Part shown: one piece after another, positions 6,746 through 30,028 of the stretch
Layout of the letters: every line of letters starts with the position of its first letter
How positions within the stretch are numbered: position 1 is the first letter of the stretch
IMG/VR virus record: IMGVR_UViG_3300005613_000300
Span: 1 to 30,028 of that record
Source of the DNA: a virus
Strand: one strand, 5' to 3'
DNA length: 30,028 bases
Notes under the pieces: generated by a model
Told to the model about the DNA's origin: nothing
Database searches by the model: none
What the model saw: only the letters and a program-made list of their open reading frames with translations
Made by a program: the position numbers and the translations under genes

Positions 6746-9745
6746 ATGCAAGAGGCTACAATAAAGATTAATATTGATTCTAAAAACGCAACTAATAATG
6801 TAGGTAAATTACAAGATGATTTACAAGCCACAAGACAAGAATTAGATAGGTTGATAAAGACCTATGGTGAAAACTCCAAACAAGCCGACAATATGAGAAA
6901 AAGTTTGGCAGGTTTAGAAATTGAAATGGGTAAGTTGGGTGTTGCAACAGATGAAGCGGTAGGTTCAACTCAATCATTAAAAACTGAATTACGAAAACTA
7001 ACTGATGAATTAGCAACACTTGAACCTGGATCAGCAAGGTTCAAAGAATTATCAATTAGAGCGAGTGAATTAAAAGACCAAATAGAAGATACGGATGGTG
7101 TTGTAAGACAATTAGCAGGTAATTTTACTGAAAGATTAACAAGAGGTATTAGTTCTGCTGTTGGTATTGGTGTTGCTGGCTTTCAAGCGATGACGGCAGC
7201 ACAAGCCTTATTTGGTGTTGAAAGTGAGGAACTACAAGAAACTATGGTTAAATTACAGGCGTTATTAAACCTGTCCCAAGCCATAGAAACATTTGGGGGA
7301 TTGGATCAAAAGATAGTTGAGATAAAATCTTTATTTAGTTCTTTAACAACCGCAACACAAGCCCAAGCCGTAGCACAAACAGAAACCGCAACAGCAACAG
7401 CCGCCACAACATTAGCGATGGAGGGTGAGGCTGTCGCAGCAGGTGGGGCAGCAGCCTCAACATCAGTATTAGGGGTCGCCTTAAACGCATTACCATTAGT
7501 GGCGATTGTATCAGCAATAGGACTACTTGTCGCAGGTTTAATTAGTTATGCTTCTAAATCAGGTGATGCCGCAAAAGAAGAAGAAAAAAGAATTAAGAAC
7601 CTTGAAGAATTAAAGAAAAGACAAGAAGAAGAAAAAAAGTTTGTTGGTGAAAGTTCAGCCCAATATCTTAATTTAGTTTTTCGTCTAAAAGAAACAAATA
7701 AGAACTCCAAAGAAAGAAGTGATTTAATTAAAGAAATCAATACAACTTACGGAACTACTTTAAAAAATATCCAAGATGAAACCGCTTTTCAAGACCAATT
7801 AAACTTATCTGTTAAGGAATATATCGCCCTACAATTAGCAAAATTCAAACAATCTGCTAATGAAGAAAAATTAAAGAAATTATATGGTGAATTAGCCGCA
7901 GCAGAGAAAGAACAAACAAAGGCGATGAACGCAAGAAAAAAGGCGGCAGAAGCTTTAATTGGTATTACAGACCAATATGAAGGTAAAATTAGAAATGAAG
8001 ATGACGCATTAAGAGTTTTAGCCAGAACCTCCGCTGGATATAACGCAGATATAGCAAAAACAAATTCAACATATCGGGCATTAGAAGAAAGAATATCAAA
8101 TTTAACAATCACAAATAGGGATTTAGAAAAAACTATTGATGGTTTAACTGTATCAGGTAAAAAATATGAAGTTCAAACTAAAACTACAACAGGTAGTGTT
8201 GGTGATGTTAATGAAGAAACTGAAAAATATGCTGGTTTATTAGAAGAAGTCAAAAATAAGATTGATAGAGAAATTGCCGCTCAACAAACATTAGATAGAA
8301 TTACAAGTGAAAGGGTTGATAATACCCTTAAAAAAGAAGAAGACGCAATCAATAAACAATATGGGGACGAAAGACAAAATGTTATTGATAGGGCAATTGA
8401 AAGGGAGATACAAGCAACCGAAGAAAAGTTTAAAGTAGAAGGTAAAACCGAAGAAGAATATAGAACCCAAGTTCAAGCAATCAGGGATAATTACCAAACT
8501 TATTTACTTGAAAGTGAGAAAAACTTATTAACCCAATTAGAAACATTTAGACAAGAGGATTTAACCAATCTTCAAAATAGTTATACCCTACAAGAACAAA
8601 TTGTTTTAAACAATACCCAACAGATTTTAGAAAATACAAGGTTATTAGAATTAGAATATCAAAAACAAGCTGAAATTGATGCTGTTGATGCGACAACCCA
8701 AACCGAAGAAGTAAAAAATCAAAAGAAAATAGAGGTTAGAAAAAAGTATGCCGATCAGGAAATACAACTAATCAAATCATTAGGTCAAAAAGAACAACAG
8801 GCATTAGATTTACAACTTCAACAGACACTAACAAAAGAAGGGATTACAATACAAGAAAAAGAACAAGCCCAAGCCAAGTATAGTCAAGACACAATTAAAC
8901 TCGCACAGGACACGGCAGACAAAATAAATGATATAAATGAAGGTATTAAATCCCCAATACCTGAAACTCCACAAGCAAAAATTGATGAAGGTGTGGCGAT
9001 GGCTTCTAAATATGTAGATGCCATAGCGTCCCTTTATAATCAATTATCTAATGTAATCCAATTAGCAACTGAAAATCAATTTGGGGTTAGACAAGATAAA
9101 ATTGATGAAGCATATAGATTAGAAAAGGAATCATTAGAAGGGGCGTTAGAAGAAGAAAGAGTTAGTAGAGAACAATATGACGCTGATATAGAAAGGTTGG
9201 ATCAAAAACGATTTGAAGAGGAAAAACAATTAAGAAAAGAACAATTTGAAATCAGTAAGAAATTACAAATATCAAACGCAATCATTCAAGGAGCCCAAGC
9301 GGTATTAGCGGCATTTTCATCAGGGGCTGCCGTTCCAATTGCGGGTATTACTCTGGGGCCGATAAACGCGGCAATCGCAGGAGGTATAGCGGCAGCTCAA
9401 TTAGCGGTAATCGCCAACCAACAATTTACGGCAGCAGAAGGTGGGGTTGTTCCTGGTAATGGGTCTGGTAATATTGATTCAGTCCCTTCGTTATTGGCAC
9501 CAGGAGAGGCTGTAATCAATTCACAATCAGCACAGATGTTCCCCAATCTATTATCACAGATTAACGAAGCTGGTGGTGGTAAATCATTAGTTCCTGACCT
9601 TCCACCAAGAAGCGCGTCTCAACAGACACCAAATGTATTCGTTCAAAAAGAAATGAACCAACCAATAAAGGCCTTTGTTGTGGAAACTGATATAAGTGAT
9701 TCACAACGAAGAATTAACCGCATTAAACAATCGGTAGAGTTTTAA
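6746..9745 (+). CDS. Tail tape measure protein (999 aa)
   Basis: Longest tail-side helical protein: coiled coil in residues ~1-120, an Ala-rich segment and a hydrophobic stretch at ~241-269 (VLGVALNALPLVAIVSAIGL followed by LVAGLISYA), then several hundred residues of Glu/Gln/Lys coiled coil. The C-terminus has the hallmark GG.VPG.GSGNIDSVPSLLAPGE pattern (about residues 898-925) typical of tape measures. These proteins set tail length at roughly 1.5 angstrom per residue, so a tail near 150 nm would be expected. Unusually, the frameshifted chaperone that normally precedes the tape measure lies far away at 24259. No lytic transglycosylase or peptidase motif is visible. Confidence 0.93.
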   Translation: MQEATIKINIDSKNATNNVGKLQDDLQATRQELDRLIKTYGENSKQADNMRKSLAGLEIEMGKLGVATDEAVGSTQSLKTELRKLTDELATLEPGSARFKELSIRASELKDQIEDTDGVVRQLAGNFTERLTRGISSAVGIGVAGFQAMTAAQALFGVESEELQETMVKLQALLNLSQAIETFGGLDQKIVEIKSLFSSLTTATQAQAVAQTETATATAATTLAMEGEAVAAGGAAASTSVLGVALNALPLVAIVSAIGLLVAGLISYASKSGDAAKEEEKRIKNLEELKKRQEEEKKFVGESSAQYLNLVFRLKETNKNSKERSDLIKEINTTYGTTLKNIQDETAFQDQLNLSVKEYIALQLAKFKQSANEEKLKKLYGELAAAEKEQTKAMNARKKAAEALIGITDQYEGKIRNEDDALRVLARTSAGYNADIAKTNSTYRALEERISNLTITNRDLEKTIDGLTVSGKKYEVQTKTTTGSVGDVNEETEKYAGLLEEVKNKIDREIAAQQTLDRITSERVDNTLKKEEDAINKQYGDERQNVIDRAIEREIQATEEKFKVEGKTEEEYRTQVQAIRDNYQTYLLESEKNLLTQLETFRQEDLTNLQNSYTLQEQIVLNNTQQILENTRLLELEYQKQAEIDAVDATTQTEEVKNQKKIEVRKKYADQEIQLIKSLGQKEQQALDLQLQQTLTKEGITIQEKEQAQAKYSQDTIKLAQDTADKINDINEGIKSPIPETPQAKIDEGVAMASKYVDAIASLYNQLSNVIQLATENQFGVRQDKIDEAYRLEKESLEGALEEERVSREQYDADIERLDQKRFEEEKQLRKEQFEISKKLQISNAIIQGAQAVLAAFSSGAAVPIAGITLGPINAAIAGGIAAAQLAVIANQQFTAAEGGVVPGNGSGNIDSVPSLLAPGEAVINSQSAQMFPNLLSQINEAGGGKSLVPDLPPRSASQQTPNVFVQKEMNQPIKAFVVETDISDSQRRINRIKQSVEF

Positions 9746-9757: not shown

Positions 9758-10720
9758 ATGAAATACTTTTTTAACGAAGATAAATTACCCGTTCTATTAT
9801 TAGATTTTGAGGAAGAAGTAATGAACTCTGGTATGGACGCAATTTCGTTTGTTGATAATCCTGCCACCAAAATCAAATGGGAGATTTTCCAAGACATAGA
9901 TGAAAGTTATAATGATTATCCAATATCAGCTCAAAACAACGCATGTAGAGCGTTAAAATACAAAGAAAAACACCCAAATAACGATTGTGGAACAAGAACA
10001 GGTTGGGCAAGAGCCAATCAGTTATGCGGTAGAAGAAATATCACAGTAGAAACAATCGCCCGCATGGCATCATTCAAAAGACACCAACAAAATAAAGATG
10101 TCCCTTATGATAAAGGTTGTGGAGGTCTTATGTGGGATTGTTGGGGAGGTGATGAAGGAATTGATTGGGCGATTAGAAAAATGGAGTATATCAATAATAG
10201 ATTAAAGGCATCATCATTTAATAAGTTTGAAACCATAGATGAGGAAAAAAGATTGGTTAGTTCCCCTGTTATGTTGGCAGACACTAACATTCTACGATAC
10301 AACCCTGATTTAGGAAAATACTATGTTAAGTTCAAACCTGAAACCATAGAGAAAATGATGAAAAAATACTTCAAGGAAAACAAAATCCATAAAGTAAATC
10401 TAAATCACGACCCCCGATCAAAACAGGACAATATCTATATGGTAGAAAGTTATATTGTTGGGGACAGGAACAGGTCAAACTTATTTACTGATTTACCTGA
10501 TGGAACTTGGGTTGCCACTTTTCTTGTTGAAAACGATGAAGTTTGGGAAAAAATTAAAAACGGGGACTACAACGGATTTAGTTTAGAAGGATTTTTTATT
10601 GAAAAATACGAAGACGAGATAATTTCAAAGTTGGAAGAAAAAATCAACGAGATTTTAGAAGGAAAAGAAAGTGATGAAGACAAAGAATTAAAAATAAAAA
10701 ATCTATTAAATATCAAATGA
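9758..10720 (+). CDS. XkdF-like prohead maturation protease with inserted Cys-rich domain (320 aa)
   Basis: The N-terminal GMDAISFVDNPA (residues 25-36) is the typical opening of XkdF-type phage proteases. Residues ~165-285 carry the core: VSSPVML ... YYVKFKPETIEKM ... NLNHD (214-218) ... GFSLEG (273-278). His217 and Ser275 are the likely catalytic pair. Between them and the N-terminus, residues ~55-150 hold a separate module (NNACRALKYKEKH ... GTRTGWARANQLC ... MASFKRH ... WGGDEGIDWA), known as an insertion in some phage head proteins. The protease would cut scaffold and capsid N-termini inside the prohead. It is the first gene of the head block and overlaps the holin-like gene by ATGA. Confidence 0.82.
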   Translation: MKYFFNEDKLPVLLLDFEEEVMNSGMDAISFVDNPATKIKWEIFQDIDESYNDYPISAQNNACRALKYKEKHPNNDCGTRTGWARANQLCGRRNITVETIARMASFKRHQQNKDVPYDKGCGGLMWDCWGGDEGIDWAIRKMEYINNRLKASSFNKFETIDEEKRLVSSPVMLADTNILRYNPDLGKYYVKFKPETIEKMMKKYFKENKIHKVNLNHDPRSKQDNIYMVESYIVGDRNRSNLFTDLPDGTWVATFLVENDEVWEKIKNGDYNGFSLEGFFIEKYEDEIISKLEEKINEILEGKESDEDKELKIKNLLNIK

Positions 10721-11142
10721 AAAATATATTAAACGCAATTGGTTTATTCTTATCCCCTGTTATACCTATGATGGCAGTTTGTTTCTTTATCATAATGGTT
10801 GATACAATCACAGGACGAAAGGCGGCAAAAAAAAGAGGTGAAGTGGTTAATTCCCGTAGAACAAGGTTAGGTTTAGTATCTAAATTACTAACATACTTCG
10901 CAGTTATTCTAATGGCATACTTTACTGACTACTTTATTCTAAATGAAATCACAACTCGTTATGTATGGTTTGATTACTTATTTACTCGTTCTTGGACTGG
11001 TATATTGATATGGATTGAATGGACGAGTATAAACGAAAATATTAAAACTTTGAGGGGTATTTCCCTTAATGAGAAGGCTATTACCTTTATAGAAGGTGTA
11101 AAAAAAATCGTTAGAGAACTAATGACTATTAAACAACAATAA
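10717..11142 (+). CDS. Holin-like membrane protein (141 aa)
   Basis: Small protein with hydrophobic segments at about residues 9-29 (SPVIPMMAVCFFIIMVDT), 55-76 (LLTYFAVILMAYFTDYF) and a weaker one near 88-103, separated by a basic loop (GRKAAKKRGEVVNSRRTR). Topology and size fit the phage holin family 4-like group, which permeabilise the inner membrane at lysis. Its start overlaps the protease stop (ATGA), an odd place for a lysis gene, as it is embedded in the head-assembly operon and no endolysin follows. A membrane-anchored structural or superinfection role cannot be excluded. Confidence 0.6.
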   Translation: MKNILNAIGLFLSPVIPMMAVCFFIIMVDTITGRKAAKKRGEVVNSRRTRLGLVSKLLTYFAVILMAYFTDYFILNEITTRYVWFDYLFTRSWTGILIWIEWTSINENIKTLRGISLNEKAITFIEGVKKIVRELMTIKQQ

Positions 11143-22127: not shown

Positions 22128-22502
22128 ATGAGTAATTTAAATGAAAGACATAAAGCATTTTGTGATGAATACCTGGCTAATGGTATGAACGCAACCCAAG
22201 CGTATAAAAAGGTTTATAAGGTGAATGATAAAGTGGCGGGAGCAAGTGGGGGTAGGTTGCTGGAAAATGTTAAAATAAAAGAATACCTTAAACAAGAGGG
22301 AGAAAAGACAGCAGAACGACTACAAATAACCAAAGAACAACTCCTATTAGATTTGGAGGATATTAAAAATCGTAATATGGGTGTTAGGGATTCATTATCA
22401 ATTAAAGCAATTGAGGTGATGAGTAAGATGAGTGGTTTTGATGCCCCGATCAAACAGGACATCAATATAACAGAACAACCATTATTACCTGACGATGAAT
22501 AA
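22128..22502 (+). CDS. Terminase small subunit (124 aa)
   Basis: The opening LNERHKAFCDEYLANGMNAT followed by QAYKKVYKV and SGGRLLENVKIKEYL is the classic helix-turn-helix start of the terminase_2 small subunit family. The rest is a helix-rich oligomerisation region (ITKEQLLLDLEDIKNRN), ending in an acidic tail (LLPDDE). It binds the packaging site and feeds DNA to the large subunit. Length is normal for a short family member. It heads a block in which a methyltransferase-like gene separates it from TerL. Confidence 0.88.
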   Translation: MSNLNERHKAFCDEYLANGMNATQAYKKVYKVNDKVAGASGGRLLENVKIKEYLKQEGEKTAERLQITKEQLLLDLEDIKNRNMGVRDSLSIKAIEVMSKMSGFDAPIKQDINITEQPLLPDDE

Positions 22503-23043
22503 AAATATGAGTAATTGGTTAAAGACTGGTAATCAATTTAATATTAAAGATGAGTATTATACTCCACCCATTTTAGTAGAACCAATTATACAATATGCGA
22601 AAGGAATTATATGGTGTCCTTTTGATACAGAAGATAGTGAGTTTGTAATTCAATTAAAAAAGAATGGTAATGAAGTAATACATAGTCATATATGGGAGGG
22701 TAAAGATTTTTTTGAATATGAACCAGAACAATATGATATGATTATATCCAACCCACCTTTTAGTAGAAAGTTAGAAGTATTAAAAAGATTATACGAATTG
22801 AATAAACCATTTGCTATGGTTTTGGGATTACCAATATTAAATTACCAAGAAGTAGGTAGTTTTTTTTTAGATAAAGAATTACAACTTTTAATTGTTGATA
22901 AAAAAGTTTCTTTTGATGGGAATACAGCATCATTTAACAATTCTTATTTTTGTTATAGAATGTTGCCAAAAGATTTAATGTTCGTTCATTTAGAACATAA
23001 TAATAGTAAGAAATACTATAAAGGTTCAAATATGAGTAAATGA
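22495..23043 (+). CDS. NPPF-type methyltransferase-like protein between TerS and TerL (182 aa)
   Basis: Motif IV is SNPPFS (residues 85-90), as in N6-adenine methyltransferases. Motif I is not the usual FxGxG but IIWCPFDTEDSEF (38-50), which I recall from small phage proteins labelled adenine methyltransferase that also sit near terminase genes in other phages. The LNKPFAMVLGLPILNYQEVG segment follows as expected. It overlaps TerS by eight bases and TerL by four. ATG 22507 is a possible alternative start (MSNWLKTGNQF), with an AATAAAAAT leader. Activity is uncertain because motif I is weak. Confidence 0.7.
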   Translation: MNKNMSNWLKTGNQFNIKDEYYTPPILVEPIIQYAKGIIWCPFDTEDSEFVIQLKKNGNEVIHSHIWEGKDFFEYEPEQYDMIISNPPFSRKLEVLKRLYELNKPFAMVLGLPILNYQEVGSFFLDKELQLLIVDKKVSFDGNTASFNNSYFCYRMLPKDLMFVHLEHNNSKKYYKGSNMSK

Positions 23044-24221
23044 ATTATAAACAGACCACATCACTAAAAAGAATAAGACAATTAAAGAACCGAATTAAAG
23101 TAATACAAGGGGGTTCATCAGCAGGTAAGACAATTGCCATTCTTATTTTACTAATAGACAAATGTATTAAGACCCCCAAGTTAGAAGTAAGTGTTGTTAG
23201 TGAATCAATCCCCCATTTAAGAAGGGGAGCCTTAAAGGACTTTCTAAAAATAATGAAAGACACAGGTAGATTCATTCCACAGAACTACAACAAGTCCCTT
23301 CTACGATATGAATTCACAAATGGGTCTTATATGGAATTTTTTAGTGCAGATAGTGAGGAAAAACTAAGGGGTGGTCGTAGAACAATTCTATATGTGAATG
23401 AGTGTAATTCTATTGATTACGAATCATACCTACAATTAGCCATTAGAACAAGTGGGGAAATATTTTTAGATTATAACCCATCACAAAAGTTTTGGGTCAA
23501 TACAGAACTGATCGGGCAACCCAATACAGATTTTATTGTTCTAACTTATAAAGACAACGAGGCATTACCAAATGAGGTTGTAATGATGTTGGAACACAAT
23601 AGAGAAAAAGCCAAGACATCTTCATATTGGGATAATTGGTGTAAGGTTTATTTGGATGGTCTAACAGGACAAATTGAAGGGACAATATTTACTGACTATG
23701 AGGTGATTGATAAAATCCCCGATGAAGCCAGACTACTTGGATACGGAATGGACTTTGGATATTCAACTGACCCATTAGCTCTTATAGCCTTATACAAATA
23801 CAACGATTCAATCATAGCCGATGAAATACTATATCAAAAGGGATTACTCAATAGTGAGTGTTCTAAAATGATGAAGGATATGAAAGTAATGGGGGAAATA
23901 TACGCTGATTCAGCAGAACCCAAGTCAATTGCCGAAATCAAAAAGTATGGGTTTAATATTAAACCAGTAGAGAAAGGTAGTGATAGTGTAAATTATGGTA
24001 TTCAAGTTCTTCAACAACAACATATTTATATTACAAAACGAAGCACTAATCTTTTAGAAGAATTACAAAAGTATATGTGGAAGAAGAGTAAAGATGGGGG
24101 ATATGAGAACACCCCAATAGACGCATACAACCACGCCATAGACGCCTTACGATATATTGCGATGATGAAGTTGGGTCAAAGAAAAGAAGGAAGTAGAGCT
24201 CCTGTAATGAGATTTATGTAA
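23040..24221 (+). CDS. Terminase large subunit, PBSX-like (393 aa)
   Basis: ATP-driven packaging motor and headful nuclease. Walker A is GGSSAGKT (residues 24-31), Walker B is ILYVNECN (116-123) with Glu121, and the coupling motif is LDYNPS (143-148). The RNase H-like nuclease has GYGMDFGYSTDP with Asp238, EIYADSAEPKSI with Asp290, and HAIDALRY with Asp368, a complete acidic triad. The start overlaps the methyltransferase-like gene by ATGA. Length is typical for PBSX-type members, which are associated with headful packaging. Confidence 0.94.
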   Translation: MNYKQTTSLKRIRQLKNRIKVIQGGSSAGKTIAILILLIDKCIKTPKLEVSVVSESIPHLRRGALKDFLKIMKDTGRFIPQNYNKSLLRYEFTNGSYMEFFSADSEEKLRGGRRTILYVNECNSIDYESYLQLAIRTSGEIFLDYNPSQKFWVNTELIGQPNTDFIVLTYKDNEALPNEVVMMLEHNREKAKTSSYWDNWCKVYLDGLTGQIEGTIFTDYEVIDKIPDEARLLGYGMDFGYSTDPLALIALYKYNDSIIADEILYQKGLLNSECSKMMKDMKVMGEIYADSAEPKSIAEIKKYGFNIKPVEKGSDSVNYGIQVLQQQHIYITKRSTNLLEELQKYMWKKSKDGGYENTPIDAYNHAIDALRYIAMMKLGQRKEGSRAPVMRFM

Positions 24222-24258: not shown

Positions 24259-24873
24259 ATGATTAAAGTAGAAATAGAAATTGATGGTGAATTAACAACT
24301 TACTCGTTCCCGACATCTTGGGACGACATAACAATATCCCAATATCAAAGGTTATATGAAATACCAAAAAGGGAGAGTAATGATTTATTTTATTATTTTG
24401 ATGTATTACACGCCTTATCCAACATAGAACATAAGGTTCTTCAACAAATGAGTTTTAGTGATTTTAAACAACTAACAGAACAACTACAATTCATTTATAC
24501 CCCCGTTGAAAATAAGAAACTAACGGCAATAGAATTGGAAGGGGATATGTATTATATTCACACAGATTTTAATAAATACACAGCAGGAGAGATTATCACC
24601 ATAGACACAATACTTCGTCAATACAACCACGAGTATATTAAGTGTATGACTGATTTACTATGTGTGTTTTTAAGAAAGAAAGAGAATGATAAGGTAGAAA
24701 TATTTACAACTGACTTACTAAATAGAAAAGAGTTATTTTCCAAGATTAAAATTGGGGATATAAATAGTGTGTTCGGTTTTTTTTTGTCTGGAAAAAATTC
24801 GTTAGAGACCAATATAAAGGACTCTATAAACGAGAACTCCCCCAAAAAGAAAGTAAGTTTAAAAGAAAATTAG
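24259..24873 (+). CDS. Tail assembly chaperone, short form (204 aa)
   Basis: The protein opens MIKVEIEIDGELTTYSFPTS followed by WDDITISQYQRLYEI, a pattern seen in Bacteroidota phage tail chaperone-like proteins, and is helical with a central beta pair (LEGDMYYIHTDFNKYTAGEI). Near its end the message contains a T9 run, so a minority of ribosomes are expected to shift into the frame of the 87-residue extension. The short form then has a charged C-terminus (SPKKKVSLKEN). Such chaperones coat the tape measure while the tail tube polymerises. It follows TerL and its own CGACATATTTAT motif, far from the tape measure gene, which is not the usual arrangement. Confidence 0.68.
   Translation: MIKVEIEIDGELTTYSFPTSWDDITISQYQRLYEIPKRESNDLFYYFDVLHALSNIEHKVLQQMSFSDFKQLTEQLQFIYTPVENKKLTAIELEGDMYYIHTDFNKYTAGEIITIDTILRQYNHEYIKCMTDLLCVFLRKKENDKVEIFTTDLLNRKELFSKIKIGDINSVFGFFLSGKNSLETNIKDSINENSPKKKVSLKEN
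24777..24783 (+). other. Slippery heptamer T TTT TTT for -1 frameshifting
   Basis: The nine T at 24777-24785 contain X_XXY_YYZ in register with the 24259 frame: T, then codons 24778-24780 and 24781-24783. A one-base slip back enters the frame open from 24768 to 25046. A second, weaker A_AAA_AAT site lies at 24792-24798. Confidence 0.6.
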
Positions 24874-25046
24874 GTGATGATAAAAAGTTAGATGAAAGAT
24901 ATACTTGGTTAGATTTTGTGTATAAGTTGATGATGGACTTGAAACTAAAAGAAAGTGAGGTATATGAAATGAATTACATTCATTGTCTAAACTGGTTAAG
25001 TTATTTTAAGAACCTTGAAGATATAAAAGATAAAAACAAATTATAA
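24783..25046 (+). CDS. Tail assembly chaperone, frameshift extension (long form 262 aa)
   Basis: This frame is open from 24768 to TAA 25044-25046, but has no ATG until deep inside, so independent start is unlikely. It encodes FVWKKFVRDQYKGLYKREL, a Lys/Asp-rich stretch and the helical YTWLDFVYKLMMDLKLKES then EVYEMNYIHCLNWLSYF, which resembles the second part of lambda gpG-T-type chaperones. Its coding character is clear and its end overlaps the next gene's ATG. Reading through from 24259 by a -1 slip gives 262 residues. The alternative is a missing base in the T run of the assembly, which would make one ordinary gene. Confidence 0.65.
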   Translation, partial: FVWKKFVRDQYKGLYKRELPQKESKFKRKLGDDKKLDERYTWLDFVYKLMMDLKLKESEVYEMNYIHCLNWLSYFKNLEDIKDKNKL

Positions 25047-25552
25047 TGGCTATTACAAACATAATCACATTAAATCAATTAATAAGTTGGTTTAACGACT
25101 TCCAACAACGACACTACTTTTTGAAGGACTTTGGATTTGGGGAAACATATGATATTGGGACATCAAGACAAATGAACTTTCCTTATATGTGGGTGTCTAT
25201 GAACGACAACTCAATTATTCAAGTTGGATCAAACAACAGGTCAGCAATCCCCCAATTTAGTTTTTCTGTAATGTTTATGGATAAGATAAATATTCAATCA
25301 AACTACTTTGATACAAATGGATTTAATAGTGATAATTCACAAGAGATATTAAGTGATACGACCCAATACTTACAGGATTTAATTGTTGAGGTTCAACAAG
25401 ACTGGCAACAATACGGGGTGTTGTTTGCTAGTGATGTATCATTTTTTCCAGTAATAGATGAAACCCCCGATAAATCAACAGGAGTTGTAGCAAACATCAC
25501 ATTCAAATTAAAACAAGTGAATTGTATTATCCCTGTTTCACCAATACAATAG
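25046..25552 (+). CDS. Tail terminator/completion-like protein (168 aa)
   Basis: Alpha/beta protein (MAITNIITLNQLISWFNDFQ ... FSFSVMFMDKINIQ ... DTTQYLQDLIVEVQQDWQQY ... VVANITFKLKQVNCI) whose helix-sheet-helix-sheet order fits the small proteins that cap the tail tube and join it to the head. It overlaps the frameshift extension by one base (TAATG) and precedes a 46-aa coiled-coil gene by three bases. Identification is by fold pattern and context only. Confidence 0.58.
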   Translation: MAITNIITLNQLISWFNDFQQRHYFLKDFGFGETYDIGTSRQMNFPYMWVSMNDNSIIQVGSNNRSAIPQFSFSVMFMDKINIQSNYFDTNGFNSDNSQEILSDTTQYLQDLIVEVQQDWQQYGVLFASDVSFFPVIDETPDKSTGVVANITFKLKQVNCIIPVSPIQ

Positions 25553-28567: not shown

Positions 28568-30028
28568 ATGAGTTATTCCGCAATTACACTTCCGCACGAT
28601 TATATGGCAGGTTATAGTAGTATTCCATTAAAGGTATTTGATACAAACTACGACCAACTAAATCAATATAAGTATGTGGTAAATGCTGTGTATGATGATG
28701 TATTCATTACAACAGCAATCACATATTCATATCAAGGTCAATTACAAACCAAACTAACATCAGCAACCCCACATACATTTAAAAAGGGGGATTCCATTTT
28801 ATTAGATGATTATAACAATAATATCTACACAGGGTATTATAATATTTTATCAGTTGTTTCATCTACGGAGTTTGTAATCAATTTGTTTCTACAATCACCA
28901 ATACCATCTTATCCATTAAGGGCATCAAAGTTTTATAAATGGAAGTTGTCCCCCGATCAAGACGGGTATGGTAAATTGGATATGAGTAATGTGATGAAGG
29001 ACTTGGTGTCCCAAAATCTAACGGGAACACCTGTGAATTATGGTTTAATTTATGACGCACCTGATACTAAAAAGTGTTTTGGGTTATTAGCAGGTTATGA
29101 AGCTCAATATAAGTTTGAGTTTGAAGATAATGCCTTTTTAACAGGGGGTTTTGTTGGGTTTTATAATTCATCAATCACATCGTTAAATGGTATTCCATTT
29201 CAAATAGGACAAGTTATTCAAATTCAACAAAACGAAGTGGCTTGGAACTATACAGGTATAACTCAAAATGGGGCTTATGCTCAATACAATTCTTCTTCAC
29301 CTCACGGATTTTCAGCAGGACAACCAATACAAGTTCAAGGACAGACAACTTTAACGCAATACAACGGAAATACAACAGTATTATCAGTCCAATCAACAAC
29401 ATCTCTAACCACTTGGCAATCATATTGGGGTAGTTCAACAGTAGCAGGAACAATATGGGGACAACCAAGACCTGAATATAACACAACTGCTGTAATCACA
29501 GACATATATGTTGATGGTGTATTGGGAGTTGTTATTGAAACCAACTTGGCATTTGCTGGTTCATCACCTGTTATATCAGGGTCAATAACTTATCCTGGTA
29601 ATCAAACCCCCGAAATACTAACGGAATATAGTGATTACAACGCATTTTGTATCTATAACGCCCATATCAATAGAAAAGATTATTCTATTACGGCATTTGA
29701 CCCTTATGTAATTCAAAATAGGGCTTTTTCAGGTAATTCTATACCCACAATATTTCAACCTGAAACTTGTTATAGAATTGAAACAAACACAATAGGGTTC
29801 TTATTATTTCACACCTCATCGGCATCACTTATAGATGGGGTTATTTATGAATTCTTTGATTCAAACTATTCATTAATAGGTAAAATCAAATTAGATAAGA
29901 ATACAACAAGTCAAACTGACTTCTATGCCCCATTTGGATTAAATCAAATATCTAATAGTTCTTATGTGGATATTACTAATACCTTTTCATCTTATTCTGG
30001 TAATGTGAATACTTATGTTATGTATGGT
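28568..30028 (+). CDS. Tail tip/distal tail structural protein, 5' part (continues at 1-609)
   Basis: This frame starts at ATG 28568 (MSYSAITLPHDY) and is still open at the window edge. Joined through the 123-base overlap it ends at the TAA at 607-609, giving a 648-residue protein. It is rich in Ser, Thr, Asn, Tyr and Gln and looks mainly beta-structured, with no catalytic motif that I recognise. It lies just upstream of the 1025-aa hub-like protein and upstream of the fibre genes and tape measure, so a distal tail or baseplate role is inferred from context. The leader is A/T-rich, with TATTTAA at 28552-28558 and an A-run before the ATG. The antisense HNH gene ends its 5' side 53 bases upstream. 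The specific function is not certain. Confidence 0.75.
   Translation, partial: MSYSAITLPHDYMAGYSSIPLKVFDTNYDQLNQYKYVVNAVYDDVFITTAITYSYQGQLQTKLTSATPHTFKKGDSILLDDYNNNIYTGYYNILSVVSSTEFVINLFLQSPIPSYPLRASKFYKWKLSPDQDGYGKLDMSNVMKDLVSQNLTGTPVNYGLIYDAPDTKKCFGLLAGYEAQYKFEFEDNAFLTGGFVGFYNSSITSLNGIPFQIGQVIQIQQNEVAWNYTGITQNGAYAQYNSSSPHGFSAGQPIQVQGQTTLTQYNGNTTVLSVQSTTSLTTWQSYWGSSTVAGTIWGQPRPEYNTTAVITDIYVDGVLGVVIETNLAFAGSSPVISGSITYPGNQTPEILTEYSDYNAFCIYNAHINRKDYSITAFDPYVIQNRAFSGNSIPTIFQPETCYRIETNTIGFLLFHTSSASLIDGVIYEFFDSNYSLIGKIKLDKNTTSQTDFYAPFGLNQISNSSYVDITNTFSSYSGNVNTYVMYG
29906..30028. repeat. Terminal direct repeat (circular contig overlap), right copy
   Basis: Exact repeat of bases 1-123. Position 29906 equals position 1, giving a circular unit of 29,905 bp. 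It is most likely an assembler overlap on a circular or circularly permuted genome, which also fits headful packaging. Confidence 0.97.

Follow-up and report, generated by a model that had tools for sequence, protein, structure and literature searches.

A gene lying directly downstream of the terminase large subunit gene (TerL) ends in two overlapping reading frames, the second of which is open over a protein-like stretch, and the locus therefore raises the question of whether the two frames are read as one protein, and if so, by which mechanism. The stretch of DNA analyzed here, hereafter the window, comprises 30,028 nucleotides; a 123-bp identical direct repeat at both ends (1-123 = 29906-30028) suggests a circular phage genome that is complete at 29,905 bases. 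An earlier note on this DNA had read the locus as a tail assembly chaperone gene with a -1 programmed frameshift of the lambda gpG/gpGT type. Our analysis leads to a closely similar reading: the locus very probably encodes a siphophage-type tail assembly chaperone made as two products by -1 ribosomal frameshifting. The features on which the argument turns are collected in Table 1.

Table 1. Features of the window that bear on the two-frame gene and its surroundings
Feature	Position	Strand	Basis or remark
TerL (terminase large subunit)	23040..24221	+	PHROG E 2e-36; Pfam Terminase_3C E 1.2e-19; directly upstream of chaperone-like gene
Zero-frame ORF, 204 aa, probable 'G'-like tail assembly chaperone product	24259..24873	+	translation, homologues, predicted fold
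-1 frame ORF, putative 'GT'-like extension, stop TAA 25044-25046	24768..25046	+	open frame; codon-position pattern
T9 run; T_TTT_TTT at 24777-24783 is the slippery heptamer, in register with the zero frame	24777..24785	+	sequence
Weak predicted RNA hairpin, 14 nt past heptamer	24798..24834	+	z -1.70; 12/200 shuffles as good
TAATG, -1 frame stop overlapping ATG (25046) of next gene	25044..25048	+	sequence
Next gene, 168 aa	25046..25552	+	syntenic in relatives
Tape measure candidate	6746-9745		only weak PHROG matches

The anatomy that the earlier note had described, with an in-register heptamer, a -1 frame open throughout but lacking a usable start, and products of 204 and 262 aa, agrees with the window in each respect. 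The run contains exactly nine T's, read as GGT TTT TTT TTG in the frame of the 24259 start, and the earliest ATG, GTG or TTG of the -1 frame is a GTG at 24918. The zero frame gives the 204-aa product, and a slip at the heptamer would join 175 residues to 87 from the -1 frame, yielding a predicted fusion of 262 aa. For slippery motif classes we consulted the PRFect paper (PMC10885494). Across the 31 plus-strand genes of the window surveyed, we counted 57 in-register X_XXY_YYZ heptamers. In only two of these 31 genes does such a heptamer lead into a -1 frame that outlasts the zero-frame stop by over 30 nt, namely the present one and the protease-like gene 9758-10720. Near the end of the latter lies an in-register AAAAAAT (10696-10702), where the -1 frame corresponds to the overlapping neighbor 10717-11142, and this is probably merely a gene overlap. 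A second plus-strand T9, at 22860-22868 (AGT TTT TTT TTA) within ORF 22495-23043, stands in the same slippery register, yet its -1 frame closes after four codons; consequently, the argument for frameshifting rests on conservation and not on the motif.

Relatives were recovered from IMG/VR with four queries (TerL, each half of the gene, and a profile built on its second half), with loci taken from the best 80 of 300 TerL matches and the best 80 of 111 second-half matches. The clade containing the window (clade 1) is represented by 67 distinct strings including the window itself, some of them partial or near-duplicate; 66 clade-1 sequences group into 29 clusters at 80% nucleotide identity, which are not fully independent of one another. 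Among the matches listed, the two halves stand in a -1 relation in 66 of the 67 distinct sequences, window counted. The sole exception, L034, carries T9 at the slip and the first piece of the second half in the -1 frame, followed by a further frame change downstream that is absent from its near twins L032 and L033. The 43 loci L014-L056 were chosen by TerL (from the best 80 of 300 matches) and not for having a second half; seven of them (L020, L028, L042, L048, L053, L055, and L056) stop short of the site, and 35 of the 36 long enough retain the -1 relation. Six loci with the second half only, found alongside clade 1, belong to the more distant clade described below.

The slip site was located independently of its T's, by aligning the proteins of the first halves, and by this placement NNT TTT TTT (T_TTT_TTT) is present in 64 of 67 sequences among the matches listed. 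For comparison, ahead of the site in these genes 74% of NNY codons end in T (3715/5025), and TTT makes up 61% of Phe codons (469/769); the first T of the heptamer is silent in the zero frame. The remaining three sequences (L009, L013, and L164) have NNT TTT only, with one Phe codon fewer, but retain the T_TTT core; there the run has shrunk to T5 (T_TTT_TCA), the second half still lies in the -1 frame, and in L009 and L164 the frames overlap by just 37 nt. Over 66 clade-1 sequences, the run is nine T's long in 55, eight in four, ten in three, five in three, and seven in one, in a count that located the site via in-register T's, so that its 66/66 first-base figures are partly built in. The window was compared with 10 of 65 relatives, and in each of the 10 comparisons the majority of differences past the zero-frame stop sat at the third position of a -1 codon.

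A second, more distant clade (clade 2), whose TerL is 56-58% identical to that of the window, carries a diverged version of the pair. Its 37 TerL-set loci (L057-L093) include 31 with both halves, 29 of them distinct; five (L066, L068, L074, L078, and L090) do not reach the site, and in L073 the gene pair is absent from the neighborhood of TerL. All 29 distinct clade-2 sequences among the matches listed show the -1 relation and exactly T9. Their frames overlap by 277-376 nt, and most of the second half in this clade is thereby dual coding (for example, L057 5733-6075). The same arrangement occurs in two cultured Nonlabens phages, P12024S and P12024L, in which CTT TTT TTT TAT (T9) is followed by an open -1 frame and TerL lies directly upstream of the pair; these genes (38/39 in P12024S, phrog_32199 and phrog_38404; 40/41 in P12024L) are annotated as two hypothetical proteins. 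The Nonlabens phages thus share TerL adjacency, T9, and a -1 second half with the window, whereas their first half measures 175 aa against 204 aa. Profile comparison of clade 1 with clade 2 plus Nonlabens linked the first halves at hhalign E 3.9e-6 (probability 87%) and the second halves at E 1e-6 (probability 91%), these being pairwise values from shallow alignments; gene order and place agree with this linkage. Alignment A5 comprises all 29 clade-2 sequences, while A7, A8, and A9 comprise 8, 5, and 6 chosen sequences, respectively. The earlier note had proposed looking for a conserved slippery site in relatives; both halves, their -1 relation, and the T_TTT core recur in 66/67 sequences of clade 1, 29/29 of clade 2, P12024S, and P12024L.

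Under the proposed mechanism, most ribosomes would read the zero frame through and produce the 204-aa 'G'-like protein. At GGT TTT TTT, in a minority of passages, two Phe-tRNAs would shift backward in tandem by one base and pair anew with UUU UUU, after which the shifted ribosomes would continue in the -1 frame to 25044 and complete the 262-aa 'GT'-like fusion. By analogy with lambda, for whose gpG/gpGT roles we follow Atkins et al. 2016 (PMC5009743), the shared N-terminal part may bind the tape measure protein, and the -1 extension may recruit the tail tube subunit. Binding to tape measure and tail tube, together with absence from the virion, characterizes chaperones of the lambda G/GT type. 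Slippage itself, its ribosomal nature, its rate, and the chaperone function are inferred.

A stimulatory structure 4-10 nt downstream is a common, though not obligatory, companion of -1 programmed ribosomal frameshifting. A section of Sharma et al. 2014 (PMC4066793) describes hairpins sought at 4-10 nt past the motif. In the window, no stem starting 4-8 nt past the heptamer was significant (p 0.75), and the weak hairpin listed in Table 1 is a possible stimulator by its predicted fold. Across the 29 cluster representatives of the 66 clade-1 sequences, on which the stem shuffles were run, the mean best-helix energy is lowest 5 nt past the slip motif (-9.4), followed by -8.2 at 6 nt, against -2.7 to -6.2 at the remaining offsets from 0 to 30. 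Stems starting at 4-8 nt beat shuffles at p<0.05 in 11 of the 29 clusters and at p<0.01 in seven, with a Fisher sum of 139 over the 29 clusters (58 degrees of freedom, p values floored at 0.0025); nine of the 11 significant stems start at 5 nt, and the distance to the 3' arm varies between lineages. In clade 2, a helix of 6-7 bp starts 4-5 nt downstream in 23 of 29 sequences, as a plain count of helices. Among 15 sequences folded, L007 (z 0.45), L015 (0.92), L057 (0.26), and P12024S (0.99) folded no better than shuffles, RNAalifold found no consensus in alignment A4 (28 of 66 sequences), and the clade-2 consensus fold yielded nothing beyond a helix of near-zero energy in which the T run itself takes part.

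Ribosomal slippage is the best-supported mechanism, being consistent with the T_TTT core, with the stems downstream of it, and with variants whose runs are five to eight T's long. Counting against it, the window is without a stem near +5, and 18 of the 29 clusters show no significant stem at 4-8 nt. The T5 runs of L009, L013, and L164 are short for transcriptional slippage and fall within the U_UUY tetramer class, which a passage of Sharma et al. (PMC4066793) ranks among the tetramers shift-prone in Escherichia coli. The same work, in the part concerned, holds that tetramer motifs definitely need a strong stimulator, and yet of the T5 lineages L164 alone shows a significant stem (p 0.035), L009 standing at p 0.78.

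The rival that survives best places the slip in the polymerase: RNA polymerase would add one U on the T9 template, and the resulting T10 mRNA would be translated conventionally into the fusion. This is the mechanism of Thermus dnaX. It would account for a run kept at exactly nine T's in 29/29 clade-2 and 55/66 clade-1 sequences, which exceeds what the heptamer needs, and in a large share of bacterial genomes counter-selection becomes visible for runs of nine A's or T's, as stated in a portion of Baranov et al. 2005 (PMC1088944). Part of the run, however, is fixed by coding in both frames, and in 8 of 66 clade-1 sequences it is only eight, seven, or five T's long with the -1 relation retained. 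The excess of stems, moreover, sits downstream of the T run and favors the ribosomal route, because such a stem is still untranscribed when the polymerase meets the run. We therefore judge transcriptional slippage unlikely for the family, while treating it as a live rival for the T9 members.

If the second frame were a separate gene, with its own start codon or translated by coupling, no fusion would be made, and annotators of P12024S and P12024L did call the downstream half as an ORF of its own. The earlier note had named two outcomes that would speak against its reading, reads with T10 that give one continuous frame and relatives that begin the second frame at its own ATG. No relative examined shows one continuous frame through its T run, and only 1 of 66 clade-1 sequences (L150) has an ATG, GTG, or TTG in its -1 frame no further along than the slip, the first in the window lying, as noted, well past the run. 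Furthermore, the FF.W residues at the slip itself belong to the best-conserved positions of the second half, all of which makes a separate gene highly improbable. A miscounted homopolymer, by which sequencing or assembly error would have broken one continuous ORF, can be set aside as very unlikely and practically negligible, even though homopolymers are error-prone and the Duneviridae homologues are single ORFs, because the -1 relation recurs in clade-1 and clade-2 contigs drawn from many metagenomes and in the genomes of the two cultured Nonlabens phages, with the zero-frame stop falling 18-96 nt past the heptamer position in clade 1.

Homologues of the first half also occur in unsplit form. 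A continuous ORF of 259-301 aa is encoded by Duneviridae (FPSV-F7, 2A, laban6-1, and Ingeline_1), Polaribacter phage Leef_1, and a Microcystis phage; the Duneviridae proteins (phrog_25418) span 293-301 aa in one continuous frame and, unlike the window gene, need no frameshift. Their first domain matches the window family at hhalign E 1.5e-7 (probability 94%), and the first domain of the unsplit proteins matches clade 2 at E 5.7e-7 (probability 92%). The match of the unsplit C-terminus to the clade-2 second half is weak (E 0.0061, probability 6%), though at the expected place, and the Duneviridae C-terminus is perhaps homologous to it. At the level of sequence, the unsplit homologues fit a reading of both halves as one protein; since the Duneviridae protein is unsplit, two products are not needed everywhere. 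In Cellulophaga phage Ingeline_1, the first-half homologue sits upstream of the gene annotated as tape measure, three genes away. Flavobacterium phage 6H was considered as a counter-example and rejected: its -1 frame runs straight into a stop and its near-identical relatives are single ORFs, so that it says nothing for the frameshift mechanism. In 6H (L170, 10352-10927, minus strand), a short stretch differing from these relatives, either a real change or a sequence error, ends an otherwise continuous 293-aa protein at 191 aa.

The identity of the gene product was approached through structure and profile searches. The model of the zero-frame product (pLDDT 82) found no match in the PDB with Foldseek at E<=0.001; among 238 realigned PDB chains, the best was 2OB9, the HK97 gp13 tail assembly chaperone, with a weak match (Z 3.1, rmsd 4.4, 72 residues) that covers model residues 89-174 and leaves the N-terminal part of the model uncovered. 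In BFVD, 40 viral folds matched at E<=0.001; a single one carries the name tail assembly chaperone, and the set includes a 175-aa P12024S protein, which has the length of gene 38. For the model of the -1 domain (pLDDT 74.7), the fold search gave no convincing relative. In sequence searches, neither half of the window matched a PHROG at E<=0.001 or came near a Pfam cutoff, and tblastn in phages with the window halves and the first half of L040 found nothing. Alignments A2 and A3 comprise 29 of 38 rows; the members of A2 gave weak matches only (phrog_166 'tail protein' in 18/29, best E 0.00029), those of A3 gave nothing below E 0.004 against family libraries, and profile searches of solved-structure sequences returned one match at E 0.91 for one profile and none for the other.

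The slip site of lambda is G_GGA_AAG, and that of the window is a T_TTT_TTT within T9. A passage of Atkins et al. 2016 (PMC5009743) describes gpGT as the longer of the two products, arising by a -1 slip. The window gene resembles this system in having one start and two products, the longer predicted to come from slippage into -1 close to where the first frame ends; no sequence match linked it to lambda gpG/gpGT in the searches made. Thus, of the lambda-type reading in the earlier note, the two-frame anatomy and its conservation are well supported, whereas the chaperone identity is less firm, depending as it does on the weak match to the HK97 protein, the one fold match named as a chaperone, and the place of the Ingeline_1 homologue, and we regard the chaperone function as probable.

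The genomic position also differs from that in lambda, the gene following TerL and lying about 11.6 kb downstream of the tape measure gene round the circle, if 6746-9745 is taken as such. The usual siphophage order, with the gene just upstream of the tape measure gene, does not hold in the window; that order is a habit of siphophages and not a defining feature. The earlier note had found the location odd on both counts, and while the distance from the tape measure stands, the position after TerL is not unusual among relatives: TerL lies 24-1194 nt upstream of the gene in 57 of 66 clade-1 relatives among the matches listed, a figure biased by the many loci chosen through TerL. Of the remainder, six (L007, L151, L161, L165, L167, and L168) have 960-2479 nt of upstream sequence but no TerL match, and three have no upstream sequence. 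Because many loci were picked by TerL, this neighborhood is better described as common than as proven general. On the other side, the next gene matches no PHROG at E<=0.001 and no Pfam family at E<=1, and by position its product may be tail terminator-like. Its overlap with the -1 stop in TAATG recurs in 42 of 66 clade-1 sequences, window counted, among the matches listed, which hints at translational coupling, with shifted ribosomes possibly feeding the next gene.

These proteins would constitute a new, unannotated family of frameshifted tail chaperones, of probable chaperone function and belonging to a kind of system already known from lambda. A literature search for tail assembly with frameshifting in Flavobacterium or Cellulophaga phages found no paper, in a scope that left out most subscription journals. 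More tentatively, and with the odds against it, the family, in phages related to those of Bacteroidota, may have moved between decoding modes, namely a tandem slip of two tRNAs at U9, a slip of one tRNA at U5 (T_TTT_TCA), possibly slipping by the polymerase at T9, and, in Duneviridae, full fusion with no second product, in which case the ratio of two products thought essential in lambda would be dispensable in part of the family. With T-run length varying naturally from 5 to 10 and the first domain found elsewhere in an unsplit ORF, the family offers a natural series for asking what sets the proportion of the two products, and whether that proportion matters, in phages whose probable hosts make little use of Shine-Dalgarno signals. 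For annotation, the gene pair of the two cultured phages, now two hypothetical proteins, would join a tail chaperone family. T9 and the -1 relation also appear in a bacterial bin, on a contig (L171) of a Sulfurovum MAG that stands outside all counts and is perhaps a phage contig binned with that genome.
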